A stretch of 64,000 nucleotides of DNA, taken from assembly GCF_021608185.1 (NCBI RefSeq), contig NZ_JAKIHN010000005.1, forward strand, positions 124,001 through 188,000. The letters run 5' to 3'. The position numbers and the translations under genes were made by a program. The DNA is from Flavobacterium anseongense (GTDB lineage: Bacteria > Bacteroidota > Bacteroidia > Flavobacteriales > Flavobacteriaceae). The number at the start of each line of letters is the position of its first letter. Within the stretch, counting starts at the first letter, position 1. Below, piece by piece: positions 1 to 21,545 of this stretch. The notes under the pieces are model-generated. The model saw only the letters and a list, made by a program, of their open reading frames with translations. It searched no databases and had not been told where the DNA came from.

Positions 1-65
1 GATGTAATTTGCATCGTAGATGAAACGGAACTAATTCGATTACGTATTTCCTTTAAGTTTGCCAT
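1..65 (-). CDS. atpG: ATP synthase gamma subunit, 5' end only
   Basis: Reading the minus strand from the ATG at 65 gives MANLKEIRNRISSVSSTMQI, which is the conserved N-terminal helix of the F1 gamma subunit, the rotating shaft inside the alpha/beta ring. About 21 codons are visible before the window edge. It follows atpA by 71 bases, as expected for the order atpA-atpG in an ATP synthase operon. The identity is clear although the gene is cut by the window. Confidence 0.9.
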   Translation of the reverse strand, partial: MANLKEIRNRISSVSSTMQIT

Positions 66-136
66 TGTTTAATGTAGAAATGTACCAATTAATCAATGTG
101 AAAATTGTTACATGTTCACATTGATACATTGAATAA

Positions 137-1711: not shown

Positions 1712-1734
1712 TTTGATATATCTTTAATGGTAAT

Positions 1735-2262: not shown

Positions 2263-2267
2263 AACGA

Positions 2268-2768
2268 TTAATTTAATTTAACGTCACCTAACATTTTCTC
2301 AACCAATTTGGTTTGAGAAGCTTTGTCAGCTAATTCATTTCTTAATACTTTCTCTGCTATTTCGATAGACAAGTTAGAAACCTGATTTTTCAAATCTGCC
2401 ATAGCAGCATTTTTCTCGCTATTGATAGCTGCTTTTGCCTGTTCAATCATTTTACCTGCCTGAACTTGTGCTTCTTCTTTAGCTTCAGAAACAATTTTAT
2501 CTTTAATTTCTCTTGCTTCTTTTAGAATAGCATCTCTTTCAACTCTAGCTTGGGCTAATAATTTTTCGTTGTCTGAATTTAATTTTTGCATATCTTTTTT
2601 TGCAATTTCTGCAGAAAGCAATGCATTTTTGATTCCTTCTTCTCTTTCGTTAACGGCATCAAGAATTGGTTTCCAAGCGAATTTTCTTAATAAGAAAACT
2701 AACAACAAGAAAATTAATGTTTGCCAGAAGAATAATCCGAACGAGAAATCATTTATTAACTTTTCCAT
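2268..2768 (-). CDS. atpF: ATP synthase F0 subunit b
   Basis: This is the peripheral-stalk b subunit. The 166-residue protein has one N-terminal membrane helix at about residues 8-27 (FGLFFWQTLIFLLLVFLL). A long charged helix rich in Lys, Glu and Ala follows and would form the right-handed coiled coil reaching up to delta. Length and architecture are normal for bacterial b. The gene follows atpE after a 100-base gap that holds a hairpin, and precedes atpH by 5 bases. Confidence 0.96.
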   Translation of the reverse strand: MEKLINDFSFGLFFWQTLIFLLLVFLLRKFAWKPILDAVNEREEGIKNALLSAEIAKKDMQKLNSDNEKLLAQARVERDAILKEAREIKDKIVSEAKEEAQVQAGKMIEQAKAAINSEKNAAMADLKNQVSNLSIEIAEKVLRNELADKASQTKLVEKMLGDVKLN

Positions 2769-2824
2769 AATTTAATATGTATTATATATGTAAAATTTTT
2801 ATTTCTTTTTAGAGATAAACCAAA

Positions 2825-2845
2825 GCTGCAACCAACCGTTGCAGC
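2825..2845 (-). promoter_or_regulatory. intercistronic hairpin between atpE and atpF
   Basis: The arms GCTGCAAC and GTTGCAGC form a perfect 8-bp stem with a 5-base loop in the 100-base gap after atpE. On the transcribed strand no uninterrupted U run follows, so it is a weak candidate for a terminator. A partial attenuator or an mRNA 3'-end stabiliser is possible. That would fit the need for many c subunits per complex, but the role is inferred. Confidence 0.5.
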
Positions 2846-2868
2846 ATTTGGATTATTGTTTGTTTGGA

Positions 2869-3066
2869 TTAAGCAACAGCAAATAATGCCGCAAACCCAA
2901 TTCCTTCAACAAGTGCAGCTGCAATAAGCATCACTGTTTGAATTTTTGCTGTAGCTTCTGGTTGACGAGCAATTGCATCTAATGCAGAACCACCGATTCT
3001 ACCGATACCAATTCCTACTCCAATAACTACTAATCCTGCTCCTACTAAATTAAGAGTACCTTCCAT
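2869..3066 (-). CDS. atpE: ATP synthase F0 subunit c
   Basis: This is the proteolipid that forms the rotating membrane ring. The 65-residue protein consists of two membrane helices joined by the polar loop ARQPEA. The ion-binding glutamate is Glu54 in the second helix (ALVEGIGF). The Gln and Ser/Thr residues typical of sodium-binding c rings are not seen around it, so proton coupling is more likely. It lies between atpB and atpF in the usual order and is at the short end of the family range. Confidence 0.96.
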   Translation of the reverse strand: MEGTLNLVGAGLVVIGVGIGIGRIGGSALDAIARQPEATAKIQTVMLIAAALVEGIGFAALFAVA

Positions 3067-3127
3067 AATGTATATATATTTAATTAAACATTCAAATTTG
3101 TGTTGTAAGCGTGAAGCCTACTGCATT

Positions 3128-4249
3128 TTAATGATGAGCATCATCATGATGATGCTCTTCAACAGCAGCACCAAAATATAAAGCGGTCAACATTGTAAAA
3201 ATATAAGCTTGTAAAAGCGTTACTAAAATTTCAATTAATGAAATGACGAATGAAAGTCCGAATGCTAAAGGGCTTCCTATCCAGCTTTTGAAAATGAACA
3301 TCATTCCAATCAAACTCATTATAACGATGTGACCTGCAAACATATTAGCGTACAAACGAATCATTAATGAGAACGGTTTGATGATTGCGCCCATCAATTC
3401 GATTGGTGCCAAAATAATTTTCATTGGAACCGGAACACCTGGCATCCAAAAAATATGCAACCAATAATCTTTTTTAGCGGTAAACGTTGTGATAATGAAC
3501 GTTAAAACTGCCAATCCGAAAGTTACAGAGATATTACCTGTAACATTGATTCCGAATGGCAACATACCAATAACATTCAAAAACCAGATAAAAAAGAATA
3601 CCGTCAATAAATGACTCATATATTTTTTATAGTGTCTTTCTCCAATATTTGGGATTGCAATTTCATCACGAACGAATAATACGATTGGCTCGAAAAATCT
3701 TCCTGCTCCTGCTGCTACACCACCATTTTTAGAATATGATTTTCCTAAACCTCTGAACAATAAGAACATTAAAAGTGCTATAATCAACATAGAGAAAACT
3801 CCCTTTGTGATTGAAAAATCTAGTGGCTTTGCGTTTGTTGGATGTCCATCGTGCTCGGTTAAAGTACCTGCTGCATCTGTTTTGTAGATTCTTTCATGAT
3901 GTAAAACATAATAGTTTCCACCATCTTCTGCAACCGATTTTCCTTCATGAAATTTTGAAGAAGAAAAAATGTGAAGACCGTTATCCCAAAGAATGATAGG
4001 CAATGGAAAACCATAATGTTTCCCTGTTTCCTCGTCAGCAAAGAAATTAAAGCTGTGTGAATCTAAAACGTGGTGATTTTTTACTTCGTTAATCTGTTTT
4101 TTAATTTCAGCCTTTGGATCCTGGTTTTCTTTGGTAACAGCTTCTTCATGTCCTGAAGCTGGTTCAGGTGAATTTGCTAATAAAACCGAAGGCAAAAAAG
4201 CAATTAAAGCTACTATACTATAAAGGAATGATTTTTTCGAAAACACCAT
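3128..4249 (-). CDS. atpB: ATP synthase F0 subunit a
   Basis: This is the membrane stator subunit that carries the proton half-channels. The ATG at 4249 gives 373 residues. A longer frame opening at a TTG at 4291 is unlikely because that TTG lies inside the predicted -7 box. An N-terminal signal-like segment (MVFSKKSFLYSIVALIAFL) is followed by a periplasmic extension of about 110 residues, a form known from Bacteroidetes a subunits. Several membrane helices follow. The essential arginine lies in the motif MIRLYANMFAGH. The C-terminus ends in a His/Asp cluster. It is the first gene of the core atp operon. Confidence 0.95.
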   Translation of the reverse strand: MVFSKKSFLYSIVALIAFLPSVLLANSPEPASGHEEAVTKENQDPKAEIKKQINEVKNHHVLDSHSFNFFADEETGKHYGFPLPIILWDNGLHIFSSSKFHEGKSVAEDGGNYYVLHHERIYKTDAAGTLTEHDGHPTNAKPLDFSITKGVFSMLIIALLMFLLFRGLGKSYSKNGGVAAGAGRFFEPIVLFVRDEIAIPNIGERHYKKYMSHLLTVFFFIWFLNVIGMLPFGINVTGNISVTFGLAVLTFIITTFTAKKDYWLHIFWMPGVPVPMKIILAPIELMGAIIKPFSLMIRLYANMFAGHIVIMSLIGMMFIFKSWIGSPLAFGLSFVISLIEILVTLLQAYIFTMLTALYFGAAVEEHHHDDAHH

Positions 4250-4288
4250 AACTATGATTTGTCTAAATTTTATTTCTGAAATTTGGTG

Positions 4289-4296
4289 CAAAAGTA
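4289..4296 (-). promoter_or_regulatory. -7 promoter box of the atpBEFHAG operon
   Basis: On the minus strand this reads TACTTTTG, an exact match to the Bacteroidetes -7 consensus TAnnTTTG, about 40 bases before the atpB ATG. A good -33 TTTG is not seen at the expected spacing. It implies a start of transcription near 4282, between the DUF6168 gene and atpB. Confidence 0.6.
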
Positions 4297-4364
4297 CACT
4301 TTTAATTAATATTAAAAAGTATAAGTTTTATTTTTTTTGATGGAATTGTCGATTCTAAAACAAT

Positions 4365-4763
4365 TTATTGCTTATTGTTTAAAATTCTGATGGTTACATA
4401 GGTTTCTATTGCCAAAAAGTAAATAAATATCGCAAAGAAATTCATCTTTTCTGTTGGTGTTTTTGGAAGATTGGTATGGATTATTGGTCTTAAAAAAGCA
4501 TACGCAATTGCCATCTTTAAAGTTGTGAATGCTAAAAAAGCATAACCAACAGAGTTTTCGGATGTCTTTCTTACCATAGTCAACAACGATACTATAACCC
4601 CCGAAAGCAAAGCAAACAGTAAGTATAGCAACAATGTTGAATAAATAAAGCTGTCTTCGAATTCCTTTGGAATGACGAAATACGATATAGTTTTGTGAAC
4701 GATAAGACCGATTATGGCTGCAATAAAGACTGTAAAAAGGGAATTGTATTTTTTTAAATTCAT
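4365..4763 (-). CDS. AtpI-position membrane protein (DUF6168-like)
   Basis: The 132-residue protein has about four hydrophobic segments and short polar loops. I associate it with the DUF6168 family of flavobacteria, which has no firm function. It occupies the place of atpI upstream of atpB, and its ATG overlaps the stop of atpZ by four bases (ATGA). It may therefore take part in assembling the c ring or in Mg2+ supply, as proposed for AtpI, but this is positional inference. An independent promoter separates it from atpB. Confidence 0.7.
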   Translation of the reverse strand: MNLKKYNSLFTVFIAAIIGLIVHKTISYFVIPKEFEDSFIYSTLLLYLLFALLSGVIVSLLTMVRKTSENSVGYAFLAFTTLKMAIAYAFLRPIIHTNLPKTPTEKMNFFAIFIYFLAIETYVTIRILNNKQ

Positions 4764-4996
4764 TTTTCTTCCTCCGATTTGTTTATTTCTTTTAACTGTC
4801 GGGCGATGTTGTAAAACGCAATTACAACACCGACCATGGTTAAGATTTTTACATATAAATTATCTTTGTTTGTGAATTTTAGGTCAAGCCATTGACCAAG
4901 TTTTGCAAACAGAAAAACAATGATTCCCATTTGGATGGGAATATTAATAAGGGATAACCATTTATTACGCTGTTTTTTCTTCTGCTGATTTTCCAT
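4760..4996 (-). CDS. atpZ: AtpZ/AtpI family protein
   Basis: This is a 78-residue protein with a basic N-terminus (QQKKKQRNKW) and two membrane helices separated by a short loop containing LGQWLDLKF. This is the usual form of AtpZ/AtpI-type accessory proteins encoded beside F-ATPase genes. Family members are thought to help c-ring assembly or Mg2+ handling. Its start lies within the last 32 bases of the bactofilin gene, and its stop overlaps the next start, so the three genes are translationally coupled. Confidence 0.8.
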   Translation of the reverse strand: MENQQKKKQRNKWLSLINIPIQMGIIVFLFAKLGQWLDLKFTNKDNLYVKILTMVGVVIAFYNIARQLKEINKSEEEK

Positions 4997-5369
4997 CGGT
5001 AATCATGTTTTTTACATGAGGTTTCATTATACATGACGCACTGAATTCGGCTCCGGGTTCAACCGAAAGTTTTCCGCAGATTACTTCGCCATGAATGTGG
5101 GCTTTGGATTTTATATTAAGTATTTCCTGTACTTGTATTTTCCCTTCGAAAACACCTTCGATGTCGGCATTTTTACAAACAATATCGCCTTTCACACTGC
5201 CAGCCGGACCAATTACGATTTTGCCTTTTGATTGAAAATTGCCAACCAAATGGCCGTCTAAACGAAAATCCGCAGGTGAAATTATGTCACCCTGAATGGT
5301 AGTTCCTTCAACAATTCTATTGGTTTTTCCCAATAAATCGGTGTACGATTTTGGACTTTTTTCAAACAT
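4965..5369 (-). CDS. bactofilin family polymer-forming protein
   Basis: The 134-residue protein has the bactofilin core of short beta-helix turns at about residues 18-110. Characteristic repeats include EGTTIQGDI, VKGDIVCKN and HIHGEVICGKL. Bactofilins assemble into non-nucleotide filaments that position envelope enzymes. Here the gene lies 5 bases after the SprE-like gene and overlaps atpZ by 32 bases, so it links the gliding/secretion gene to the atp cluster. The specific cellular role in this organism cannot be read from the sequence. Confidence 0.88.
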   Translation of the reverse strand: MFEKSPKSYTDLLGKTNRIVEGTTIQGDIISPADFRLDGHLVGNFQSKGKIVIGPAGSVKGDIVCKNADIEGVFEGKIQVQEILNIKSKAHIHGEVICGKLSVEPGAEFSASCIMKPHVKNMITDGKSAEEKTA

Positions 5370-5374
5370 GATTT

Positions 5375-8212
5375 CTATCCTTTTTTACCGGATTTATCCA
5401 TTTGTGGTGATGGTGGCAACGCAAATTCCTGTTGCTCACCTCCTTTTTGTTCACCTCCTTTTAGATTTTTCCCCGGTATGATTTCATTTGGGTCGTCTTG
5501 AGATGGCTGCCCTTTTTGATTATTATTGGCAACCGGTTTTTGCTGTACCGGTTCCGGTGCTTTTTCTAAAGTCCCGTCCCAATTTGGTTGTGGTGCTGTT
5601 TCCGGAAGATTTCCGGCTAAAAACTCGTCTAAATTCTTTTTAATTTGAACTATTGTATAATTTTCTGCCGAAATAATTATAGGCGTTTGCTGTACTTTAT
5701 ACTCTTTATAGTCTTTCAATATTGATGTAATACCTATTGCTAAATCCTCCGTATTTATTCCGTGAAGCACCACAAAATTGTCGGTCATTGTGTAAATGTC
5801 CAATGAAACTGTGAGTTTGTTCAAACTTCTGTCGGCAATGAATTTTTTGATTTTTTCGCGAAGTGCTTTTGTTCCGGCGTCTTCAAAATCTTTGGTACTG
5901 TAAAGAATTTTCCAGTTTTTAGATGGTGCTTTAGATAGCTGTAGTGCTTCTAATTTAGGTAAATCAACCGATAATAATTTTTCAGCTTTTTTACCCTCTT
6001 CACTATTTGGATAATTTAATGCTACATAATTTAATGCTGTGCTAAATTCACCAAGTCCACCAAGTTTACCAACTATATTGGCTTTTAGCAATTCCAATTT
6101 AGGCACAATTTCATCTCCTGTAAATCGGTTAATTGCTTTTTCTGTCTCGGTTAAAACCGTTTTAAATTCACCATTTTGATATTGTTTGTATAGGTTAGCG
6201 TAAACGACATTTGGCGAATCACTCGACTCTTCAACTTCGCTTGACGGATTTTGCAAAATCTGGGCGTATCTCGAGTTTGGATAATTAGCAACGATGCTTT
6301 CTTTCATTGCATCCGCTTTTGATTTGTCTAAAATTTCATATAGTTTATACAAATGATACATCGATGGAAGCACTAATCTTTCTTCGGGATTATCTCTTAA
6401 TAATTTCTCAAATTTGTTTGCGGCTAATTGATATTCTTTGAATTTTTCTTTATAAATAATTCCAAGTTGATAGTTGGCAAAGTTTCTTTCTTTGCTCAAA
6501 CTGTCAATAGTTGTTTGCGATTCCGGAATTTGTTTTATGTAGAAATCCGGTGTAAATCGCTCATCGACTGCTGCAACATCTTTAGCATCTTTGTCCTCTT
6601 CAGAGTCTTTACCATCGTTTCCTTTACCTGCATTGGCTTTTTCCGAAAGTGATGCAACACGCCAATTGTCCTGTAAGCTTCTTTTGCCCCAGTTTTTGGC
6701 AAACTCTACTTTACCATATGCAACAGTTGTAGGATTGTAAAAATAGAAAACACTTTCGCTTCCTGCGGCTGAAGGATTAGGAGTTTTTGGGATTATTGAT
6801 TTTGGTTTTTTTGAACCAGAGCCATCATCTGAATCGATTTTACCGTCGTTTCTTTCCTGATTTTCTTTAATTCTTGCTAGTTTTTCAGCAGCCTTTTTTT
6901 GTAATTCTTCTTCTTTTTTAAGTTTTTCTATGTGGGTTTCAAAATAAGCTGTTCTTTCTGAACCGGACATTTTATATAGCGATATTATACTGTCATTTGT
7001 TTGTGAAATCGCTTCATATTTGATAACATCTTCCAGATTTTCTCTTTTCTTTTTTATCAAATTAAACTCTCTTGTTCTTGGTTTTAATTGAACCAAGGTG
7101 CTGTCATAATAATTTCCGGCTTTAACAAATTTGGATTCGATAAAATACAAATCAGCTAAATTCCTATAATTGGAAGCGATAAGATACGTGTCTTGTGTTT
7201 TCTTTTTTAAGGAAAGATTGTATTCTTTTTTGGCTTTTTCTTTATTATTCGTTTTTTCATAAAACAATCCCAATTGATGGTGTAAGACATCCAAAAAAGG
7301 ACGGTTCTCTCTATCCTTCAATAAATCATTGTATTTTTTTAGAAAGGCAATTGTATCCCCTTTTTCATAATCAAACTGAGCCGCTTGTCTGGCGTGTGCG
7401 TGAATTACGTATGATTTTGCCGCTTTTCTACGCATGTCGATTACGGTTTGATAGCTGGCATAAGCACTATCTTTATAGCCTAACTCTTCGTAAATCTGAC
7501 CTAAAATATAATTGTATCTTGATATTTCTTCTTTTGATTTTGTGAATTCTATAGCGATTTTAAGTTTGGCAACTGCGCTGTCTCTCTCCTGTAAATTTAA
7601 AAATGCTTGGGCCAAAGTGGCGTTAGCATCGGCAAAAATCTGATCTTTAAATTTGATTTCCTTTAGTAATTTACGAAGATTGTTTACCGCTAAAGCATCA
7701 TTATCCAAACGCATATTGGTTTTTTCTCTCCAGATTTTTACTTCGTATATTTTATCGCTGTTTGGCGATTTATTTAACACATAATTGAATGCATCTAAAG
7801 CCGGGACAAATCGCTGATCATAATATCTTGCTTGTCCGAGCATCATATATGCTTCGTCCATTTGTGGGTTTTTCTCTGAACCGTTAATGTTCATCGAATG
7901 TTTCTGAATCGCTTTGGTTGCTTTGGTTTCTGCTCTCTCAAAATTGGCGTTTTTAGTATTGCCCGGCATGAGATTATCTTCTGAAACCTGCATTCTTTCT
8001 ACAGGAAGTATTGCCCAAAAATTGTCTTTGTTTTGAAGTTTAACTTCTTCAATTCCTTTGTCCAAGGCAATTCCGCCATTGTATAAAATGTTATCTTTCG
8101 TGCTAAGCGCATGTGAATTTCTTGAAAGCCATGTGTTTCTCTTGGTAGAACAGGCAATTAAAAAAAGTAATAATCCCGTGAAGATGAAATATTTAATTGT
8201 ATTGATTTTCAA
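5375..8212 (-). CDS. sprE: SprE/PorW-like T9SS-gliding TPR lipoprotein
   Basis: This is a large TPR lipoprotein of the SprE/PorW type, needed for type IX secretion and gliding in Bacteroidetes. I favour a TTG start at 8212 (945 residues). It directly precedes a lipoprotein signal, MKINTIKYFIF-TGLLLFLIAC, with the lipobox Cys 21 residues in. No in-frame ATG is suitably placed, and the promoter lies just upstream. TPR-like helices fill roughly residues 110-440. A charged coiled-coil stretch and a Lys/Asp/Ser-rich linker follow, then a second TPR block. The C-terminus is rich in Pro, Gln and Gly. Placement of sprE close to atp genes also fits my memory of F. johnsoniae. Family assignment is likely but not proven. 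Confidence 0.8.
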   Translation of the reverse strand: MKINTIKYFIFTGLLLFLIACSTKRNTWLSRNSHALSTKDNILYNGGIALDKGIEEVKLQNKDNFWAILPVERMQVSEDNLMPGNTKNANFERAETKATKAIQKHSMNINGSEKNPQMDEAYMMLGQARYYDQRFVPALDAFNYVLNKSPNSDKIYEVKIWREKTNMRLDNDALAVNNLRKLLKEIKFKDQIFADANATLAQAFLNLQERDSAVAKLKIAIEFTKSKEEISRYNYILGQIYEELGYKDSAYASYQTVIDMRRKAAKSYVIHAHARQAAQFDYEKGDTIAFLKKYNDLLKDRENRPFLDVLHHQLGLFYEKTNNKEKAKKEYNLSLKKKTQDTYLIASNYRNLADLYFIESKFVKAGNYYDSTLVQLKPRTREFNLIKKKRENLEDVIKYEAISQTNDSIISLYKMSGSERTAYFETHIEKLKKEEELQKKAAEKLARIKENQERNDGKIDSDDGSGSKKPKSIIPKTPNPSAAGSESVFYFYNPTTVAYGKVEFAKNWGKRSLQDNWRVASLSEKANAGKGNDGKDSEEDKDAKDVAAVDERFTPDFYIKQIPESQTTIDSLSKERNFANYQLGIIYKEKFKEYQLAANKFEKLLRDNPEERLVLPSMYHLYKLYEILDKSKADAMKESIVANYPNSRYAQILQNPSSEVEESSDSPNVVYANLYKQYQNGEFKTVLTETEKAINRFTGDEIVPKLELLKANIVGKLGGLGEFSTALNYVALNYPNSEEGKKAEKLLSVDLPKLEALQLSKAPSKNWKILYSTKDFEDAGTKALREKIKKFIADRSLNKLTVSLDIYTMTDNFVVLHGINTEDLAIGITSILKDYKEYKVQQTPIIISAENYTIVQIKKNLDEFLAGNLPETAPQPNWDGTLEKAPEPVQQKPVANNNQKGQPSQDDPNEIIPGKNLKGGEQKGGEQQEFALPPSPQMDKSGKKG

Positions 8213-8267
8213 AGCAAAACGTTTAATGTTATAACGTAAAAAAGTTATAAATAGTATAACTAACTGG

Positions 8268-8312
8268 TAAAAATACGTTTCTTTTTGATATGGCAAAAAA
8301 ATAAGCGGTAAG
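8268..8312 (-). promoter_or_regulatory. promoter with TTACCGCTT element, sprE-like gene
   Basis: On the minus strand the order is TTACCGCTT (near 8303-8311), 5 bases, TTTG (8294-8297), 18 bases, then TATTTTTA (8268-8275), followed by ACCAGTTAGT. This fits a Bacteroidetes -33/-7 pair with one deviation at the last -7 base. The same arrangement is found before the giant secreted protein gene. Predicted transcription starts near 8261 and leaves a leader of about 50 bases before the TTG start. Confidence 0.65.
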
Positions 8313-8374
8313 ATTTTGTCCTTAGTACTAAATACCAACAACGCTTCGATTAAAAATTGAGCCAGAGATAGAAA

Positions 8375-11300
8375 TTAATGTATCAGTTTCTTGCTAAATA
8401 CCATATCATTATCCAAAGTGATTTTAGCGATATAAACGCCATTAGCATAATAAAAAGGACTGGTGAATTGGTTCTTATATTCATTTAACGAATATATATT
8501 TATCAATTTTCCAGCGACATCATAAATCTTAATTTCTTTTATTAATTCACTCGACTCAACTTTAATCATATTATTAGAAATCACAGCAAAAGTAGTAATC
8601 TCATTCGGGTTATTTGTACCTAATGTATTATCGATATATACTACTTTGAATCTATCATTAATCTCACCGGATTGACTAGTAAAATTATATGGACTTGCTT
8701 TAAGATTATGAATAATGTTTAATAAATTATCTGTCAAATAAATATTTTGACTTTGAAATAATCCATCTACCGCTGCAATTCCAATAGTGTAGTTACCTAC
8801 TGTTGGGATATTTACTCCTATTGGGACTTGATCGGTCACGTCAAAAGGTAAAGCTCTTCCCTGTATGCCGAATTTAGCATCATCAATTAGAGAGTAAATT
8901 ACCGTTCCTCCTGTATTTTGTGAACTACAATCATAGAAGCTATCTCTTCCCATAGTTGCGTTTTCAATATATCCAAAAAGGATTCTGTCTGTTTGATTAT
9001 TTGCTGCGTTAATTAAGTCTAACCATATTCGGTTTCTTTCAATATTATTAACATCAACCGGTGTGCTTGTAATCGAATCTTGTGTTTTATAAAAAGTGTT
9101 GTTGCTATAGGAAGCGCTTCTTAAACTATTGGTAAAACCAACAGTGTTATTATCTGCAGCAGCGACAGGCGGACCATCAATCATTTGTACAAAAAATCCT
9201 TGTGCAGCTCCGATGAATAGGTCAGAATCAGCTGTTGGACAACAACTCATTCCTGAAAAATTATATTGTAAATAATCTCCTGGTCTATAATTAGACAAAT
9301 AGGAGCCATAAAAAGGGTTTGGTGTAATAATCGATGGTAAATTACCGTGTGTCCATAATCTAACATTACCTTCAATTTTTGTTCTGTTGTCAAATAGAAA
9401 CTGACTTGCACGGATGGCAGAAGGATATGGATTTCCTAATAAATTCCAGTTGTCACTCAAATTTGTTATTTCCGTTAAATTGGTCCCGTAATGTGTCGCT
9501 GTGTTTTGATCAGGTCCTCTTTCAATAGCAATTGTTATATTTCCATTATTAGGAACTCCTGTAAAACTTCCGCTTAAAACGTTATAAGTTGTGTTGTTAA
9601 ATGGTGCTGTTCCAGGTGCTCTTGCAATGTATCCCTTTCCTGCAATCATATTGTCGCCAGCTGCACTTTGCCAAGCGCCCCAACCCGCATTTGAATTTGG
9701 AATAGTGGTGTTCCATTTGTAAATTGCTCCGAAACTATATGGTGATACAATGTTATTTACATTAAAACCGGCTACTGGCGAAGACCAATAAGAATAATCT
9801 AAAGTCCTTACACTTGGTGACTCTCTTTTGTAAATAATATTTCCTGTATTTAAAACATTATTTATTTGAATTAAACTTGCGCTATTGTTGATTGTGAAAA
9901 TACCGTTTGGTTGTACCGTTACTTTATCCGTGATGGTTAAGTTTTGACTGGAATTAATTGTTAGTTGTGCATCGCTGTACAAGAATAAATTGTATCCAAC
10001 AGCATTTGGTGCTCCTGAAATTACCGGGTCATTTGCTACATTAGGGATTACGACACAGTCTGCGCTAGTTGGAACACCACTTGGTGTCCAGTTGTCATCA
10101 ACATTCCAATTAGTACTTGTTGACCCATCCCAAATTTTTGCGCCGGTAACAGTTACAACAACATCATCCGTATATTTTAAATTTGTTCCACCGCAGAGAG
10201 CATAAGTTACCTCAGCAGTATATGTAGTTGTAGCGGATGGGCAAACATTTAGAACGTCAGTTGTTCCCAAAACTGTCCCCGAAGTCCCGCTTCCTTCATA
10301 CCATTTAATCGATGTTAATGATGGTCCGGATGGTGTAAATCTCCAAGCCTCATTTGTAACTGTCCAATTTGTACTAAGTCCATTTCTATTTGGAGCGACA
10401 ACAGCTGCAGTTCCTGTAGCATTTTGAAGGCCTACAATAGCATTTCCATTATTCCAGGTATCACAGACATTTTTTTCTTTAATAAAAACATCAATAACAT
10501 TAGTGTTTTCATACAGAACAATCATACCTGTGTATAAAATCGAGTTACATGTTGAAGAAAACATTGGAATGTTATTCCATGAAGCGACTAATGCTCTACA
10601 CCCTGTGTTTAAAGTAATTAATTCCCATCCTACTTCTCCACCCACTCCCGGATCAATATCGTGATAAACCCCAAAAATACTATTTTTGAATAAAGACGTA
10701 TTTGGTAAATCAGCATTGAAAGACCATGTTGAATAACCGCCGGGAGTATTGTTGGTTGTATCAAATGTTATTACGCCATTAGATCCTATTAAACATTTAT
10801 CATAATTATTACCATAAAAACAGAAGTTGAAAGGTAAATTAATAATTGGCGACCATTTGTCATCAATATTTACACTCACCTGATTATCCAAACAACTATA
10901 CTGATATGGCGGGGCATAAGTAATTGATGCAACATTATAATTTGTGGCTTGATTTAGTTGTAAATAAGTTGCTTCTAAGTTAGTGCAAGTTGATGCTGCT
11001 GAACACACTATTGCCGCAGGATTTCCGCCGCTTAACCCTAGCCCTCCGGAAAGTATAGATGGACAAGCAAGTGATGTGGTACCACTACCGCTACCTACAT
11101 TACAAGGCGTGAAATTGGTTGGACCAAACCAAGTACTATAGTCGCTACCGCCACAATAAGCTCTCACCCAAAAATAATAGTCTTGTCCAGCTACTAAACC
11201 TGTGAGGGTTATTGTGTTTACTCCGGCTGCCGTTGAACCCGATGGAGTTGAACCTGATGTTGGTGGAGTATTAGTAGTCGTAACATAATATTGATAACCG

Positions 11301-14300
11301 TTAGAAGCCGGAGGCGTCGTACTTGCCCAAGTTATCGTCGCACTAGTCGAAGATAAAACTGTGGAATATAAATCTGAAGTAGGTGGACAACTTGGTGTAG
11401 TAGCACAAATTCCAAATGTTCCGTTATTGTCATTTCCATATTCCCATACTCTTATGAATATGGTTTGCCCCGGCGTTAAACCACTCATGGATATGTTCGA
11501 CATTAATCCGTTAGTACTGTCATCATCATCACATTCCAATAAGGTTAATGAACCACATGTTCCTGAATAGAATGCCATACCACTATCGGTCATAACTCCG
11601 GTTTGTAAATCTACTGTAAGAACTCCCGTTGCTGGAACTACAGCCGAAAACCATACATCACTACCCGAATAACTAGCGCATCCCGGTGCCGGAATTCCGC
11701 CACTTGCAGCAGCTCCTGAATTAGTGTAAGTAGCGTAACTACATGTAGTATTAACGGTTAAAGAAACTGCGCCGCAAGGATCATCATTTGTTATTGGTGC
11801 GGTAGGGCAATTAATAGTGAAATTTACACTACCTCCTGTTGAAACTTCTGGATCTAATAAAATATAATACTGTATACCAGTTGTTAATGTAAAACTAGGG
11901 CTGGTTTCAGCACCATAAAGTGAATCTATACATGTCCATCCCGAACTACCACATCCCGAAGAAACAGGCTTGAATTGATAGTTTATATAATCAAAAGAAC
12001 TTGTTTGTGTTATGGTGAAATTCCCGGTTGACGCAGGTGTAAATGTATAAATTTGTTCAACACCAGGTGTTGTCCATCCACAAGAAGAAGGGCTATAACC
12101 TCCTGTTCCTGCTGCTATAGTAACACTTTTACTCGTTCCGCAAGCAGCAATATTTTGTATTGAAGTACATGGATTATAAGGCACAACACAAGTTCTGGAA
12201 ATGGTAAATGTTCCTGTGTCTGTGCTTGTTCCGGTAGAGTACCAATTAGCAATGTAAACATAATAATTTACACCAACTGCCGTAGTAAAAGTGTATGTTT
12301 CTGTTCCGCTTGATAATGCTGAATCTTGACATGCAATATTTATTAAACTTCCACAACTTCCTGAAGAAATAGACAATTCTATATCATTATTAGTAGTAGT
12401 TACCGAAATGGTGCTTGAATTGCCATCCCCTGCAAATGTGTACCAAACTCCATAATTACTCATAAGACAGCCCGTACCATGAGTATAACTTAATGCGCCA
12501 ACAGTTGTTCCTGCTAAATTGGATGTACTACAGGGTAAATTAGTTGCATTTGCACATTGATTATTTATAGGTGGTGCTGGTGTTGTTACACAAATTGTAA
12601 ATGCATTTGCTGTATTGTCACCGTTATAATCATATACTTGAACATAATAAGTAACGCCAGCCGTCAATCCGGTTAATGTTACTGTTTCTATACCATCATC
12701 TGTGGTAACATCTGTACAAGTCCCTCCTGTTGGTGTTGTCGCAGAACCACATGTGGTTATAACTCCAACCACAGCATCAAAACTTGATACTCCGTCAACA
12801 GTTATAATGTGTGAAGTACTTGTTGCAGTAAATTTGTACCAAACTGCTTTTTCTGTTCCGTTAGTGCAATCCCCCGTTTCATTATTGTCTGTGGCTCCAA
12901 CTGTAGAACCTGTTGTAGTGGTAGTGCAAGTTAAAGATGGATTTACGGTTAAAGCAATCGCTTGTGAACAAATATCATTTGTTAATGATGTAGTAACTGA
13001 ACCTGTTACATAAGCACTGCTACAGGTTCCATTGGTAGCTTTAATTCTATAATAGTAAGGAGTTGAAGAATTTAGTCCGGTTACGGCATAAGTCACTGTT
13101 GGACTGGCTATAGTAAAAGGAGATCCGGGAGCGGGAGTTGTATATCCGGCATCTGTATATACTTCCAACACATAATTTACAGCCCCTGCCGATGCGGTCC
13201 AAGATACTGTAAATCCAGAACCGGTTATCAGAGAATTTAGGGGAGTTGTTGGGACGGTTGGTGTTGTATTCACCGTTACTGCATAAGTAGCTGGAGTACA
13301 AGAGCCAATGGTATAATTCACCGTAACCGTTCCAGCGACGGTTCCAGTAAGTACACCACCAGTTGTTATGGTTGCCGCACCTGTCCCGTTAGTAACTGTC
13401 CACGTACCACCAGAAATTGGATTAGTAAAGGCAGGTGTTGCAGAACCGACACATACGCTTGCAGAGCCTCCTGCAATTGTGCCAGGAGTTTGTTGAACAG
13501 TTATAACTTTTGCTGTATTACAGGTTGTTGGTAAAGTATAAACTACTGTAACGGTTCCGGCAGTTGAACCTGTTAAAACACCTCCTGAAGTTATGGTTGC
13601 CGAACCTGTTCCGTTTGTAACAGACCAAGTTCCTCCTGAAGTTGCATCCGTATAAGTTGTGGTTGCTCCAACACAAACTGTTGAAGCTCCTGCAATAGCT
13701 GCAGGTAAAGGATTTACTGTAAATGTTCCTATACTGGTTGCAGTGCCTCCTGTTGTTGTCACGCTTACAGTACCTGTTGTTCCAGATCCAATTACCGCTA
13801 CTAATGTTGTGCCATTATTTGATGTTATAGAGGATACCGGTGTACCGCCTATTTTCACATCAGCTGCCGTTGCGCCACTAAGATTTGTTCCGGTTATTGT
13901 GATGCTTGATCCAACACATCCACTTGTTGCAGTTGTTAAATTAGTAATAGTTGGTGAAGGTGGAGGGGAATAAACACAAATAGTTCCTGTCATGTCGTTA
14001 TTACTATTATAACGTTGAATTCTGATTAAGTATCTTACGCCGATTGTGGTAGCATATGTAATTGTTTCTGCTACACCATCTAAGCCGCTATCAGAGCAGG
14101 CAAGCGCTGTCATTGAAGTAGAGCAGGACCCGGTAAATAGATGCAAAACCGCATCTCTATTGGCAGCTGGCGTATAGGTTATTGTAGTGCTTATTGAAGT
14201 AGCATCAAACCATCCCCATGCATCATCTTGATCACTTGCATTACATCCTGTTGCACTATTCCAATAATCTGTTGCGAAAGTTGAATTAAAAGCAACTGAT

Positions 14301-14467
14301 GTACAGCTAGTGCCAACGGTCAGTCCAGCTCCTGCAGAAGTTGAACAACCATCTAAGGACTGGCCAAAAGCATTATTAAAAACAAATAAAAACAATAAAA
14401 ACGTTACTGTTTTTAATTTAAGATCAATAGTTGTGGTATTTATTTTTCTTAAGTAATTTCTCTTCAT
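8375..14467 (-). CDS. giant secreted multidomain protein with T9SS sorting domain
   Basis: The ATG at 14467 gives about 2,030 residues beginning with a signal peptide (cleavage likely after NNAFG). Longer frames from GTG 14575 put a non-signal stretch in front. In order I see an opening Cys-rich domain of the PPC (pre-peptidase C-terminal) type, an IPT/TIG-like domain and two near-identical Ig-like modules. These are followed by a fibronectin type III domain, several further PPC-type domains (each starting NDxC or NxC) and another Fn3. Next come a nidogen-like region (NLPFNFCFYG, GSNGVITFD) and a WDGSTSTNWN-type module. The C-terminus ends with a T9SS type A sorting domain (IYDVAGKLI ... GVYIAKI). 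It is probably an outer-surface adhesin or matrix protein. No catalytic domain was recognised. Confidence 0.85.
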   Translation of the reverse strand: MKRNYLRKINTTTIDLKLKTVTFLLFLFVFNNAFGQSLDGCSTSAGAGLTVGTSCTSVAFNSTFATDYWNSATGCNASDQDDAWGWFDATSISTTITYTPAANRDAVLHLFTGSCSTSMTALACSDSGLDGVAETITYATTIGVRYLIRIQRYNSNNDMTGTICVYSPPPSPTITNLTTATSGCVGSSITITGTNLSGATAADVKIGGTPVSSITSNNGTTLVAVIGSGTTGTVSVTTTGGTATSIGTFTVNPLPAAIAGASTVCVGATTTYTDATSGGTWSVTNGTGSATITSGGVLTGSTAGTVTVVYTLPTTCNTAKVITVQQTPGTIAGGSASVCVGSATPAFTNPISGGTWTVTNGTGAATITTGGVLTGTVAGTVTVNYTIGSCTPATYAVTVNTTPTVPTTPLNSLITGSGFTVSWTASAGAVNYVLEVYTDAGYTTPAPGSPFTIASPTVTYAVTGLNSSTPYYYRIKATNGTCSSAYVTGSVTTSLTNDICSQAIALTVNPSLTCTTTTTGSTVGATDNNETGDCTNGTEKAVWYKFTATSTSHIITVDGVSSFDAVVGVITTCGSATTPTGGTCTDVTTDDGIETVTLTGLTAGVTYYVQVYDYNGDNTANAFTICVTTPAPPINNQCANATNLPCSTSNLAGTTVGALSYTHGTGCLMSNYGVWYTFAGDGNSSTISVTTTNNDIELSISSGSCGSLINIACQDSALSSGTETYTFTTAVGVNYYVYIANWYSTGTSTDTGTFTISRTCVVPYNPCTSIQNIAACGTSKSVTIAAGTGGYSPSSCGWTTPGVEQIYTFTPASTGNFTITQTSSFDYINYQFKPVSSGCGSSGWTCIDSLYGAETSPSFTLTTGIQYYILLDPEVSTGGSVNFTINCPTAPITNDDPCGAVSLTVNTTCSYATYTNSGAAASGGIPAPGCASYSGSDVWFSAVVPATGVLTVDLQTGVMTDSGMAFYSGTCGSLTLLECDDDDSTNGLMSNISMSGLTPGQTIFIRVWEYGNDNNGTFGICATTPSCPPTSDLYSTVLSSTSATITWASTTPPASNGYQYYVTTTNTPPTSGSTPSGSTAAGVNTITLTGLVAGQDYYFWVRAYCGGSDYSTWFGPTNFTPCNVGSGSGTTSLACPSILSGGLGLSGGNPAAIVCSAASTCTNLEATYLQLNQATNYNVASITYAPPYQYSCLDNQVSVNIDDKWSPIINLPFNFCFYGNNYDKCLIGSNGVITFDTTNNTPGGYSTWSFNADLPNTSLFKNSIFGVYHDIDPGVGGEVGWELITLNTGCRALVASWNNIPMFSSTCNSILYTGMIVLYENTNVIDVFIKEKNVCDTWNNGNAIVGLQNATGTAAVVAPNRNGLSTNWTVTNEAWRFTPSGPSLTSIKWYEGSGTSGTVLGTTDVLNVCPSATTTYTAEVTYALCGGTNLKYTDDVVVTVTGAKIWDGSTSTNWNVDDNWTPSGVPTSADCVVIPNVANDPVISGAPNAVGYNLFLYSDAQLTINSSQNLTITDKVTVQPNGIFTINNSASLIQINNVLNTGNIIYKRESPSVRTLDYSYWSSPVAGFNVNNIVSPYSFGAIYKWNTTIPNSNAGWGAWQSAAGDNMIAGKGYIARAPGTAPFNNTTYNVLSGSFTGVPNNGNITIAIERGPDQNTATHYGTNLTEITNLSDNWNLLGNPYPSAIRASQFLFDNRTKIEGNVRLWTHGNLPSIITPNPFYGSYLSNYRPGDYLQYNFSGMSCCPTADSDLFIGAAQGFFVQMIDGPPVAAADNNTVGFTNSLRSASYSNNTFYKTQDSITSTPVDVNNIERNRIWLDLINAANNQTDRILFGYIENATMGRDSFYDCSSQNTGGTVIYSLIDDAKFGIQGRALPFDVTDQVPIGVNIPTVGNYTIGIAAVDGLFQSQNIYLTDNLLNIIHNLKASPYNFTSQSGEINDRFKVVYIDNTLGTNNPNEITTFAVISNNMIKVESSELIKEIKIYDVAGKLINIYSLNEYKNQFTSPFYYANGVYIAKITLDNDMVFSKKLIH
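13340..13650 (-). repeat. two tandem Ig-like modules within the giant gene
   Basis: Two neighbouring segments of the giant protein are close copies, with SGGTWSVTNGTGSATI in one and SGGTWTVTNGTGAATI in the other. The DNA is recognisably similar too, about 224 bases apart. This points to a recent internal duplication, a common way such secreted proteins change length. Boundaries are approximate. Confidence 0.6.
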
Positions 14468-14614
14468 GCAGTAATCTTTTAATCTAGTGTAATTGCGATG
14501 GATACTTTCTTTTCGTCCGATTAGGTAATTTTTAAAAATCAATAATCCTAAAAGAAAACTCATTAATCGTAACACATTTTAAAGCAAAGTGTTAAAAACA
14601 AATAGACTAGCTGG

Positions 14615-14690
14615 TAAAACTACATTTTTTTTTAACATATCAAAAATGAAGCGGTAAATTTTTACCTTTTAAGATAAAAACTTACCGCTT
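14615..14690 (-). promoter_or_regulatory. promoter with TTACCGCTT element, giant gene
   Basis: On the minus strand TTACCGCTT (near 14649-14657) is followed by 4 bases, TTTG (14641-14644), 18 bases, TAGTTTTA (14615-14622) and then ACCAGCTAGT. This mirrors the promoter before the SprE-like gene almost base for base in layout. The predicted start near 14608 leaves a leader of about 140 bases. A second, inverted copy of the upstream element is present here only. Confidence 0.65.
14649..14690. repeat. 42-bp near-perfect palindrome
   Basis: The left arm at 14649-14668 and the right arm at 14671-14690 are reverse complements at 18 of 20 positions, with only TT between them. Each arm begins with AAGCGGTAA on its own strand. 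It may be an operator for a dimeric regulator of the giant gene. It could also serve as the terminator of the ABC transporter operon that ends at 14713. Confidence 0.7.
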
Positions 14691-14712
14691 TACTAGAAAA
14701 AGTGTTAATTTT

Positions 14713-15411
14713 TTAAACTGCAAAAAATGCTTCTAATTCTTTCAACGTTTCGGGCGATGTTTGGATATCTTTTACAACTTCGCCCAAATGGAGTGCTACA
14801 ATTCTGTTGCAAACCTCAACCGTATGAACCAAATCGTGTGAAGAAACCAAAACCGTAACATTAGGGTCTTCGGCTAATTCTTTGATAATTTTTTTTAATC
14901 TATTAACCGTTGTTGGGTCTAAATTAGCGAAAGGTTCATCCAAAATAACCACTTCCGGATTTCCGATTAAAGTAGCGATAATGCCTACTTTTTTCATATT
15001 CCCTTTGGATAAATCCCTTAAATATTTCTTGCTGTTTAGAATTTCACCATTGAAAAATTCTTCGTGCTTTTTTAGTAAATCATCAACATCGGCTTTATTT
15101 TGTCCACGTAAATCACCGATGAAATAAAAGTACTCTTCGGCAGTTAAATAACCTATCAAAAAACTTTCATCGATGAATGCAGCTGTGAAAGGTTTCCATG
15201 CTTCACTTTTGTCGACCTGTACTTTGTTGTTTATTATATGGCCCGAACTTGGCTGAATTAAATCCAAGAGCAAACTGAAAAAAGTAGTTTTTCCTGCACC
15301 ATTATTTCCGACCAATCCAAAGCTTTGTCCTTTTGGAATTTCAAGATTTGGCATGTTTAAAACCATTGTTCCCAGGTTGTATCTTTTGGTTAAATTATTT
15401 ACTTGTATCAT
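14713..15411 (-). CDS. ABC transporter ATP-binding protein
   Basis: The 232-residue ATPase has Walker A GNNGAGKTT at about residues 35-43, a signature-like LRDLSKGNMKKV at about 132, Walker B EVVILDEPFANLDP at about 154 and the switch histidine in SSHDLVH. The signature is LSKGN rather than LSGGQ, as is common in exporters of this group. The paired membrane gene lies 46 bases upstream, so together they form an efflux system of unknown substrate. The 42-bp palindrome follows the gene. Confidence 0.92.
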   Translation of the reverse strand: MIQVNNLTKRYNLGTMVLNMPNLEIPKGQSFGLVGNNGAGKTTFFSLLLDLIQPSSGHIINNKVQVDKSEAWKPFTAAFIDESFLIGYLTAEEYFYFIGDLRGQNKADVDDLLKKHEEFFNGEILNSKKYLRDLSKGNMKKVGIIATLIGNPEVVILDEPFANLDPTTVNRLKKIIKELAEDPNVTVLVSSHDLVHTVEVCNRIVALHLGEVVKDIQTSPETLKELEAFFAV

Positions 15412-15457
15412 CTTATAAAGTTTATGAGGTTTATGAGTTTATCAGACTCTTCTGTTT

Positions 15458-16927
15458 TTAGTTTTTCTGTTTGTAAGCTGCTATAGTTTCGTACTTTTCG
15501 GTTTTATATACTTTTTCAATCTTGGTAAAAACCATATTTCTAAAGGCAAATCCAATAACTCCGGCTAAAGCCACAAAGAGATAGCCAATATTCGGAGAAA
15601 AAAGATAATATCCAAGAGCATATAAACCCATTGGCACCAATAGTTTTGGTATTAACATTATCACCGTTTTGAAATTAAATGCCTGTTTGTCGCCAAAAGC
15701 TTTATTGGCCATTGTCAAATCAATTGGGGTTTTAACAAATGCGCCGCCAAGCATTACCAAATGTGAGTTGACACCAATATTGTAAATCGCGCCAACGACA
15801 ATTAATAAATAAATTTCCCATCCAAAAAACACCCAATAAAAAGAAGCAATTATTGTCGAAATCGCAGTGCCTATAACCATCAGCCACCATTTTGAACTGA
15901 TGTATTCACGGTATTGAATATTTTGGCTCATCATCAACTGGTAATATGAACTATCCCAACTTGGAATGAATTGCCCAAAAGTGAATAAAAACCCTCCGGT
16001 AACAAAAATCCCGGCAAAAACCTGCATGGCCGGATTATTATAAGCTTCAATCGATTTTGTATAAAACAGTAATCCATAAAAAATAAACAGAAAACTCATA
16101 ATAACCGTGGTTCGGGAACGCTTGTTTCTTTTCAGAAGTTTAATATCGTTTTTGAGAAAAGTTCCCAGAGTTCCGAATTGGTTTAACCAAGTGAGGTTTT
16201 CGGTTTTGGCTTCATCACTTTTTTTCGCCAACCCTGTATCCAGATTTAAATTTTTTTTGAAATAATCAAATGAAAAATAATAGGTGACGATAGCTAACAG
16301 CAGCGGAATCAAAAACAAATAATAGGTGCTGTACATTCCTTGGAAAAAAGGCTGCGTATAATTGGTTACATCAAAAATCTTATAATATTGCGCCAATCCT
16401 AAACTGACAACGATAGCTAACATCGGATAAAAAACGCTGTTCTTATTATTGAGCAAAATATTGATAAAATTATTAGAATAAATCAAAGCCGTAATACCTA
16501 AAAGCCACAAAACAGCTTGAAATCCAAAGCCATGGGTAAACAAGGCAATCGTAAACGGAATAAAGAAAAAAGCGTGTATTATATTAAAAAAAGAGATGAC
16601 CGTCTTCCCTAAAGAAAAATGAACAACAGTATCTCTTTTTATTGGTAAACTCAAAAATGGTCTTATGTTCATTACAGGCATTTTTTGAAGAAAATACCTT
16701 ATGACTAAATCCATAACTAAATAATAAATCAAAAATTTATTAACTGTTGACAATGGTTCTAAATGGAATTCCTGAAGAATATTGTATCCAAAAAAACCTA
16801 GTAGTGAAAATTCAAGTATTATAATAACAGCAAAAATGCCCATTATAATTTTAAATGCCACATTGGTGCCAAAAGAAGCCGAACGAAGAAAAGCTTTCCA
16901 TTCGAGCGAAATGAAGTGTTTGAACAT
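15458..16927 (-). CDS. ABC exporter membrane protein, DUF5687 type
   Basis: The 489-residue protein has about twelve hydrophobic segments and short loops. An N-terminal cytoplasmic stretch (FKHFISLEWKAFLRS) resembles other ABC-2-like permeases. I associate it with DUF5687, a Bacteroidetes family that pairs with ABC ATPases. It is followed by the ATPase gene 46 bases later. Direction of transport is most likely export. The substrate cannot be told from sequence. Confidence 0.75.
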   Translation of the reverse strand: MFKHFISLEWKAFLRSASFGTNVAFKIIMGIFAVIIILEFSLLGFFGYNILQEFHLEPLSTVNKFLIYYLVMDLVIRYFLQKMPVMNIRPFLSLPIKRDTVVHFSLGKTVISFFNIIHAFFFIPFTIALFTHGFGFQAVLWLLGITALIYSNNFINILLNNKNSVFYPMLAIVVSLGLAQYYKIFDVTNYTQPFFQGMYSTYYLFLIPLLLAIVTYYFSFDYFKKNLNLDTGLAKKSDEAKTENLTWLNQFGTLGTFLKNDIKLLKRNKRSRTTVIMSFLFIFYGLLFYTKSIEAYNNPAMQVFAGIFVTGGFLFTFGQFIPSWDSSYYQLMMSQNIQYREYISSKWWLMVIGTAISTIIASFYWVFFGWEIYLLIVVGAIYNIGVNSHLVMLGGAFVKTPIDLTMANKAFGDKQAFNFKTVIMLIPKLLVPMGLYALGYYLFSPNIGYLFVALAGVIGFAFRNMVFTKIEKVYKTEKYETIAAYKQKN

Positions 16928-19922: not shown

Positions 19923-20576
19923 ATGCACATTCATAATATCTCTGAAAAAAGTAGTATTCTCAATCATTTTTTGGCACAAATTCGCGATGTTACCATTCAA
20001 AAAGACAGCATGCGCTTCCGAAAAAACATTGAGCGAATTGGAGAAATTATGGCGTATGAATTAAGTAAAACTTTAGAGTACAAAAACATCAACGTTCAAA
20101 CCCCGTTAGGAATTAAACACACCACAACCATTGCCGATAATGTTGTTTTATGCTCTATTCTTCGTGCCGGATTGGCGTTGCATATGGGTTTTATGAATAT
20201 TTTTGACAATGCCGAAAACGGTTTTGTATCAGCCTATCGCCATCACTATGACAACGATGATAAGTTTGATATTTTAGTTGAATATCAAGCGGCTCCATCT
20301 TTCGAAAATAAGAATCTGATTTTAATTGATCCGATGTTAGCCACAGGACAATCGATTGTGGCGGTGTTACATAAATTGCATTTGGAACAAAAACCAAAAG
20401 AAATTCATATTGCAGTTGTAATTGCGGCACCGGAAGGCATAGAGTATCTTCAAAAAAACCTTCCTGACAACTGTCATCTTTGGATTGCTGCTATTGATGA
20501 AAGACTTAACGAGAAAAATTATATCGTTCCGGGTCTTGGTGATGCCGGTGATTTGGCGTATGGAAGCAAATTATAG
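19923..20576 (+). CDS. upp: uracil phosphoribosyltransferase
   Basis: It converts uracil and PRPP to UMP in pyrimidine salvage. The 217-residue protein has the PRPP loop LIDPMLATGQSIVAV at about residues 136-150 and the uracil-binding end PGLGDAGDLAYGS. Length and motifs are normal. It is transcribed away from the DUF4254 gene. Its last six bases overlap the converging DUF6427 gene. A weak TACATTTA -7 box is seen at 19891-19898. Confidence 0.95.
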   Translation: MHIHNISEKSSILNHFLAQIRDVTIQKDSMRFRKNIERIGEIMAYELSKTLEYKNINVQTPLGIKHTTTIADNVVLCSILRAGLALHMGFMNIFDNAENGFVSAYRHHYDNDDKFDILVEYQAAPSFENKNLILIDPMLATGQSIVAVLHKLHLEQKPKEIHIAVVIAAPEGIEYLQKNLPDNCHLWIAAIDERLNEKNYIVPGLGDAGDLAYGSKL

Positions 20577-21500
20577 TTGGGAGAAGTAGCTAAACGAACA
20601 TCCCAAAATAAGCAGTAACAAAACGATTTCCTGATACATTTTGCTTTGCGAATATTCGATATTTGTGGTGCACATCACTGATAATGGCATAAAGGTAAAG
20701 ACCAACATTTCATTGTTTTTATCGGGCGAAATCAAAAAAATAGTTACTCCGATTAAAAATCCGAATATCATTTTTTTATAGGAAGCCTGTAATATCAGCG
20801 GCTTATTTGTTAAGGAAAAAATCAGTGATAATAGAAAATACAACCCTATCACAACAAAAAACGAGAGCGCAATATTTTGATAATTGTTGGTAAAATAATC
20901 TAATTGAAAATTCGTTTGCGTTTGATTTATAATATGAGCAATCCATGTTTTATCAAATACCAGAGCAGAAAATAAAAAGATAACTGCCGTTGCAAAAAAT
21001 GCTACAAAGGGTAAAAGCCAGTTTCTGAAGTCTCTTGAAACGTGAAAAAATATCGAAATGTAGACCAGCAGAATAAAAAGGATACACCAAAAATGAAACA
21101 GGCTGGCAATGAAAATCCACATCGAAGCATCAAAAATCTTTTCTTTTGGCGCCTTTAGTGTTTGCAAAGAAATCAATCTTCGAATGGCCAAAAGCAGAAA
21201 AAAATTGGCAAACAATAAACTAGAATTAGTAAATATGGATGGAAAAATAAGCAGGAATAACAAGAAAAATAAAATAGTATAACTGCTGTTTTTGGTCAGG
21301 TTATTCTTTTTCACCGTAAAATTTACCAAGAAAAAAGAAGACAATAATAATAAAACAAGTGTTGCTGTTTTTGAAAATCCGTTGGAAGAAATCGGTGTCA
21401 ATAAATTGCTTGACTGATACATAAAAAAGAAAAGCAGCAATAAAACTACCACTAAAGCATTATTAAGTAAAGTAGATTTTTTAAAAACACTTGTTATCAT
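20571..21500 (-). CDS. multi-pass membrane protein, DUF6427-like
   Basis: The 309-residue protein is almost wholly hydrophobic, with about nine or ten predicted membrane helices. It resembles the flavobacterial family DUF6427, which has no known function. It converges on upp with a six-base overlap and diverges from the DUF6341-like gene. The upp/DUF6427/DUF6341/purD neighbourhood is, as far as I recall, common in flavobacteria. No active-site motif was noticed. Confidence 0.65.
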   Translation of the reverse strand: MITSVFKKSTLLNNALVVVLLLLFFFMYQSSNLLTPISSNGFSKTATLVLLLLSSFFLVNFTVKKNNLTKNSSYTILFFLLFLLIFPSIFTNSSLLFANFFLLLAIRRLISLQTLKAPKEKIFDASMWIFIASLFHFWCILFILLVYISIFFHVSRDFRNWLLPFVAFFATAVIFLFSALVFDKTWIAHIINQTQTNFQLDYFTNNYQNIALSFFVVIGLYFLLSLIFSLTNKPLILQASYKKMIFGFLIGVTIFLISPDKNNEMLVFTFMPLSVMCTTNIEYSQSKMYQEIVLLLLILGCSFSYFSQL

Positions 21501-21520
21501 AAGGATATTTTATACATTTG
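21490..21520 (+). promoter_or_regulatory. promoter of the DUF6341-like gene
   Basis: CTTG at 21490-21493 is followed by 19 bases and the exact -7 consensus TACATTTG at 21513-21520. This is a good Bacteroidetes promoter pair with one mismatch in the -33 box. It lies 25 bases before the ATG. Confidence 0.6.
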
Positions 21521-21545
21521 TGCTGTAAATATAACATTTTATAAA

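Follow-up and report, generated by a model that had tools for sequence, protein, structure and literature searches.

Results

Genes and features of the locus

The window (the whole stretch of DNA analysed, 64,000 nucleotides) carries on its minus strand sprE (5375-8212), the gene of the PorW/SprE lipoprotein of the type IX secretion system (T9SS). The SprE/PorW-like identity proposed in the initial annotation is confirmed by the match of the product to NF052312 (E 8e-246, 818 bits against a cut-off of 250) and by the lipobox LIACS in the translation. The start of the gene was assigned from a conserved TTGAAAA to a TTG codon (8210-8212). Directly after sprE lies a bactofilin gene (4965-5369, minus strand), followed by the ATP synthase genes, and all of these are grouped together at 137-8212 of the window. 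Of the 59 relatives' loci with room for the comparison, 57 have bactofilin downstream of sprE in the same orientation, 51 have the 4365-4763 gene there, and all 59 have atpB, atpF, atpH and atpA, in any order. The box TACTTTTG before atpB suggests that the ATP synthase may have its own start.

A giant secreted protein is encoded at 8375-14467 (minus strand), with fn3 and GBD_T9SS_assoc domains and a T9SS type A tail; the ATG at 14467, standing before the signal peptide, is its likely start. The protein had been regarded as a likely T9SS cargo, and its C-terminal sorting domain agrees with this by a narrow pass (TIGR04183, 23.7 bits against a cut-off of 23), the score with NF033708 (26.9) being below the cut-off of 40. 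The family is large; 145 of the 150 genus genomes have some match to its last 774 residues. Further upstream, at 14713-15411 on the minus strand, lies the gene of an ABC transporter ATP-binding protein, which is the upstream neighbour of sprE in many relatives.

Two similar sites on the minus strand

Both of the look-alike minus-strand sites claimed for these genes are present, at coordinates 1-3 bases off those given initially. The site of sprE consists of TTACCGCTT (8303-8311), a 5-base gap, TTTG (8294-8297), an 18-base spacer, TATTTTTA (8268-8275) and ACCAGTTAGT (8259-8268), and that of the giant gene of TTACCGCTT (14649-14657), a 4-base gap, TTTG (14641-14644), an 18-base spacer, TAGTTTTA (14615-14622) and ACCAGCTAGT (14606-14615). 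In both, the first A of ACCAG is at the same time the last A of the -7 box. TTTG is the -33 box of Bacteroidetes primary-sigma promoters, and TATTTTTA and TAGTTTTA both differ from the primary-sigma -7 box TAnnTTTG at its last base, as had been pointed out. The same promoter-like architecture is thus borne out for both genes, and the starts expected from the boxes, ~8263 and ~14610, fall no more than 2 bases from the earlier values, all of these being predicted. Two features were absent from the initial annotation: a third, inverted TTACCGCTT at 14682-14690, and a likeness of the two sites that extends over ~195 bases.

In the whole 3.07 Mb genome (G000), TTACCGCTT-N26-36-ACCAGYTAGT and TTACCGCTT-N2-7-TTTG-N14-26-TAnnTTTN were each found at these two places only. 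The core AAAAARAAAYGTANTTTTACC, a pattern written from both sites, likewise has no other exact match in this genome, and with up to 3 mismatches it gives 11 sites against 12 for the reversed control. With a 32-base weight matrix, built from the sprE sites of 78 relatives with this genome left out, the second site scores 17.2 and the third best in the window -5.7; in the relatives' loci, 2.89 million positions when both strands are counted, no non-sprE site reaches 17.2. The resemblance of the two sites is not due to chance.

The upstream motif is a terminator arm

The motif TTACCGCTT at 14649-14657 pairs with the inverted copy at 14682-14690. Together they close a hairpin (14649-14690, minus strand) with a 19-bp stem, AAGCGGTAA...TTACCGCTT, followed by CATTTTTG, which closely follows the ABC-ATPase stop codon (14713) and folds at -23.3 kcal/mol (z -6.3), a value equalled by none of 200 shuffles. 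Stable stem, T run and location after a stop codon are those of an intrinsic terminator of the ABC-ATPase gene. In a separate terminator scan of positions 1-16000 this hairpin ranked first of the 10 terminator-like sites listed, although the scan overall showed no excess over shuffles (10 against 10.1). Fourteen relatives' loci were folded, and a hairpin of other sequence occupies the same place in five (L126, L131, L132, L141, with AGCTGT...ACAGCT as an example, and L143), while in nine no clear hairpin of such kind was seen at the corresponding place; L133, L135 and L138 have none, the promoter there following immediately on the ABC stop codon.

The counterpart next to sprE (8291-8360, minus strand) is a decayed copy of the ABC-ATPase terminator region, matching the relatives' terminator profile at E 4e-10, with TTACCGCTT at 8303-8311 as the surviving 3' arm; folding of 8291-8360 gave no better energy than its shuffles (z -0.4, 65 of 200). 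The succession of TTACCGCTT, 4-5 bases and TTTG is therefore, on the evidence of hairpin and profile, a stem arm with its T run (the U-tract), which extends into the -33 region of the promoter that follows, and the flank read in the initial annotation as a sign of a dedicated regulator or sigma factor belongs instead to the terminator of the ABC-ATPase gene upstream, as one arm of its stem. The two-part pattern that includes TTACCGCTT occurs in just 3 of 150 genus genomes; a match in G095, lying inside a coding frame, was rejected. LytTR-type response regulators have the consensus ACCGCT / ACCAGT, and sites of that type were also considered and dropped, since TTACCGCTT, besides being a terminator arm, lacks conservation.

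Conservation of the sprE element

The element was compared in 80 loci, those of the best-scoring SprE relatives; L148 and L175 begin inside sprE, which leaves 78 with upstream sequence. The block TATCAAAAAGAAACGTATTTTTACCAGTTAGTTATACTA (8252-8290, minus strand) precedes sprE in all 78, and from its position and boxes we infer that it is a promoter and leader. It includes the core AAAAAGAAACGTATTTTTAC (8267-8286) with the -7 box, and the putative -33 TTTG lies just upstream of it. In the same 78 loci the sprE start codon is TTG, placed 73-77 bases from the first A of the core, the conserved region continues as far as this codon, and the -7 box always ends in A. The -33 box, TTTG at both sites here, is variable in the relatives (e.g. 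TTTT, TTTC). An extra upstream match at 3 mismatches was noticed in 11 of the 80 loci, none of those outside sprE reaching the matrix score of the second site. Five of the loci (L126, L147, L149, L190 and L202) have a Flavobacterium-type sprE despite the titles Nitrotoga, Bifidobacterium, Rhizobium (twice) and Chitinophaga, and are apparently mislabelled metagenome bins.

Of 16 local genes compared across these loci, sprE has the best conserved upstream 22-mer, with 0.68 mean mismatches (n=79, 78 with no more than 3). The next genes' best 22-mers have 1.65, 1.78 and 1.85; the blocks at 1.65 and 1.78 lie within the coding sequence of the preceding gene and the one at 1.85 is intergenic. A second well-conserved block, CACAAATGTATAAAATATCCTT, is located at 21501-21522, just upstream of the gene 20571-21500 (1.85 mean mismatches, no more than 3 in 43 of 48 loci). 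Within the genus the 22-base sprE consensus was found beside sprE, with up to 3 mismatches, in 83 of 101 genomes. Thirteen divergent genus genomes were read singly: seven have the site at its place with 4-6 mismatches, and in the other six the sequence retrieved, which possibly does not include the true start, contained no site.

Beyond the genus, an exact AAAAAGA-N4-TATTTTTAC stands before sprE in 30 of 40 upstream regions from other genera, against 0 for the reversed control. The remaining regions have the pattern with one change (2), two (1), three (2) or four (1), or lack it (4), and at three or four changes the reversed control is itself found in 12 of 40. One hundred genomes, one per genus, contain 51 exact sites; 46 are at sprE, no more than 320 bases from the 5' end of its match, and the other 5 lie at different places. 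The reversed pattern has 14 sites by hand count, and 54 of the genera are without an exact core site at sprE. Because the exact sites are so predominantly those of sprE, the element is, as judged by sequence comparison, one that belongs to a single gene. Of the 32 other-genus sites whose core has at most one change, 29 have ATAMTA within 26 bases, against 1.35 in shuffles. In 30 of these 32, TTGA is the first word of the form NTGA at 60-115 bases downstream, so TTG is apparently a deeply conserved non-ATG start of sprE. Among the papers listed in our literature search, the text of the original sprE paper (J Bacteriol 2011) lying outside it, none dealt with a conserved sprE promoter.

Search for further sites

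A genome-wide enrichment of the motif at T9SS, gliding or adhesin genes, put forward in the initial annotation, did not materialize: the sites other than the two described stay at the level of the reversed control. When up to 2 mismatches to the family core were allowed, this genome gave 52 sites and the control 56, and no group of T9SS, gliding or adhesin genes shared the motif at the stringencies applied. Searched in full length and stringently, the motifs did not recur at functionally related genes. The genus consensus gave 119 sites in 101 genomes, 83 at sprE and 36 elsewhere, compared to 61 for its reversed control (hand count); in the other genomes the recurrent non-coding site is that of sprE, and two non-sprE strings recur. 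Several candidates were rejected as regulon members: a AAAAAGAAACGTATTTGTACC-like string in six genomes, which lies in one open frame with near-identical translation, a string in G006, G057 and G063, which lies inside a long open frame, and a single site in G061, also within an open frame.

Relatives of the giant gene located away from sprE were read in five loci (L118-L120, L122, L123). L118 has no core match within 5 mismatches, L122 has one at 4 and two at 5, and L119, L120 and L123 have matches at 5 only. The match in L119 lies ~60 bases before the open frame of the gene, and two in L123 lie before the gene on the opposite strand; the matches in these four loci were taken as chance.

The second copy as a probable duplicated junction

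The region 14507-14702 (minus strand) contains the ABC terminator, a sprE-type promoter and a decayed 5' end of sprE, comprising the leader, the lost start codon and signal-peptide codons. A junction profile made of the ABC terminator, sprE promoter and sprE 5' end from 8 relatives matches it at E = 6e-14 over profile positions 11-230 of 270. Its terminator part alone gives E 3e-6 at the second copy; the post-promoter part alone gives only E 0.18, as the second hit of the window, at the exactly colinear place, an unrelated place scoring close behind at E 0.22. The local alignment of the second copy continues through the former sprE start codon into the signal-peptide codons, and in eight comparisons of this downstream part 1, 1, 2, 7, 7, 11, 18 and 298 of 1000 shuffles scored as well, the last value being that of L132. 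The promoter part occupies 14606-14644, with the TTTG, TAGTTTTA and ACCAGCTAGT given above. Judged by these alignments, the two sites are most likely paralogous copies by descent and no regulon. The reading frame of the giant gene is also open upstream of its likely ATG, at 14468-14575, running through the sprE remnant, where GLLIFKNYLIG corresponds to GLLLFLIACS, and an extended N-terminus is possible.

In the closest relative (G126 = L126), with SprE 90% identical, the ABC gene and sprE are neighbours with one element between them, and the giant gene is absent there. Given this single copy and the absence of the giant gene, the latter has probably become placed downstream of a duplicate of the sprE promoter. 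A relative of the giant gene was found beside sprE in L134 (= G101) alone of the 80 loci, some of which have little upstream sequence. The G101 protein (L134 / L121), of 1430 aa and encoded directly upstream of sprE, is 65% identical over 1367 aligned columns; it has another N-terminus, and its gene another upstream neighbour and another, ordinary-looking promoter. Because of this different promoter, the adjacency of giant gene and sprE may predate the promoter copy or have arisen twice. The most economical history would be an insertion of the giant gene at the junction together with a ~195-base duplication, after which the left copy would have decayed; this succession and its mechanism, perhaps a single-crossover integration, are read from the present arrangement.

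Discussion

Two copies of one junction, related by common descent, a terminator upstream and a deeply conserved element before sprE make up the region studied. We consider it highly probable that this region represents a native sprE promoter and a duplicated ABC-ATPase/sprE junction, with the giant gene behind the captured promoter and with TTACCGCTT as a terminator. The native promoter would extend over 8252-8297 and be of an atypical primary-sigma type, with TTTG, 18 bases and TATTTTTA, whose location at the position of the primary-sigma -7 box would set the start at ~8263. To this would be added two further conserved boxes, AAAAAGA immediately upstream of the -7 box and ATAMTA where the transcript begins, besides a leader of ~50 bases and the TTG start codon. 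The stretch 14606-14644 would be the promoter part of a junction duplicated as a whole, that is terminator, promoter and first part of sprE. Since the giant T9SS-cargo gene is located between the two copies, it would stand behind the captured sprE promoter, the sprE frame before it having decayed, and the captured copy presumably still drives it. The sprE element itself has the appearance of a promoter specific to this gene, its -7 box being atypical, and its AAAAAGA and ATAMTA boxes could be contacts of RNA polymerase, contacts of a factor, or a means of early transcription or translation control.

The initial annotation had favoured a dedicated regulator or alternative sigma factor acting at both sites and coordinating the T9SS machine with its cargo. 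That both genes are T9SS members, and that the sprE element is conserved beyond the bare -7 and -33 boxes, including the spacer and the early transcript, would suit such a factor, but the genome has two sites only, which are copies of each other by descent, the recurrent non-coding site elsewhere is that of sprE, and TTACCGCTT is a terminator arm; we regard this reading as unsupported and the shared factor as unlikely, though one dedicated to sprE alone may exist. A related proposal, which we find more doubtful still, is that sprE is transcribed from an ECF sigma promoter of the SM6 class described in F. psychrophilum, where, in the sections of PMC9723704 on which we draw, SM6 promoters have a CGT box in the -10 region and precede T9SS genes, the selected genes including those for GldN, PorU and a TPR-domain protein. 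CGT does stand directly ahead of TATTTTTAC in 62 of the 78 genus loci, but the other 16 have TGT in its place, and in other genera only 2 of 32 sites have CGT while TATTTTTAC is retained, so the CGT is not conserved at sprE as it is in promoters of this class. A recurrent site at other T9SS genes was not found in this genome, and in those sections of PMC9723704 the selected gene list does not name sprE and gives its TPR-domain protein without identity.

Two further accounts concern the nature of the conserved block and the origin of the copies. Conservation that reaches the start codon could point to an RNA element, such as a leader riboswitch or small RNA, or to a short coding frame; yet no Rfam family matched even at half its gathering score, the consensus fold of 72 aligned sequences amounts to just -0.18 kcal/mol (column shuffles ~0), and any common frame is broken by indels and stops, as read by eye. 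The leaders of the two sites, folded singly, gave z -0.78 and -1.25. We give this account the least credit of all. Hardly more probable are direct repeats from a mobile element carrying the giant gene, in spite of the ~195-base repeats that flank one gene and the empty arrangement of close relatives, as the repeats are native ABC/sprE junction sequence, and the frames listed between them are the giant gene and two short overlapping ones. Target duplications are normally far shorter than ~195 bases, and these repeats much exceed them.

Starting from the native sprE promoter and its duplicate, we put forward, tentatively and as a possibility below even chances, that the element is a private, family-wide device of sprE, made of AAAAAGA-N4-TATTTTTAC, ATAMTA and TTG. 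Through an unknown factor or an unusual sigma contact it would fix the dose of SprE, a bridge protein of the T9SS, and duplication would have put the giant cargo gene under the same device. The control of T9SS in gliding flavobacteria is poorly known, and a single-gene, family-wide element is a result worth following: being present at one gene per genome and having a conserved non-ATG start, the sprE block is a well-defined target for mutagenesis and for the pull-down of factors. The duplicate illustrates one route by which a surface-protein gene may reach the promoter of a secretion machine.

Compared with known systems, the hairpin resembles intrinsic (rho-independent) terminators in its stable stem and T run following the ABC gene stop codon, and is ordinary except that its T run extends over the -33 region of the promoter that follows. 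Gene capture behind a duplicated promoter is an evolutionary pattern that the cargo gene behind a copy of its neighbour's promoter would follow, with the difference that the activity of the captured copy is here presumed. SM6 promoters and the PorXY-SigP control of T9SS genes (PMC9723704, PMC4800418, in the portions used here) share with the sprE element the location before T9SS genes and the CGT frequent in the genus, whereas at sprE the CGT is not kept in other genera and no regulon was found in our searches. The primary-sigma promoters of Flavobacterium have, as described in those portions of PMC9723704, a TAnnTTTG box at -12 to -5; the sprE element agrees with them in its TA-N2-TTT at the expected place with TTTG 18 bases upstream, and appears to differ in ending with A and not the usual G, in the AAAAAGA directly upstream, in the conserved early transcript and in its restriction to one gene per genome.
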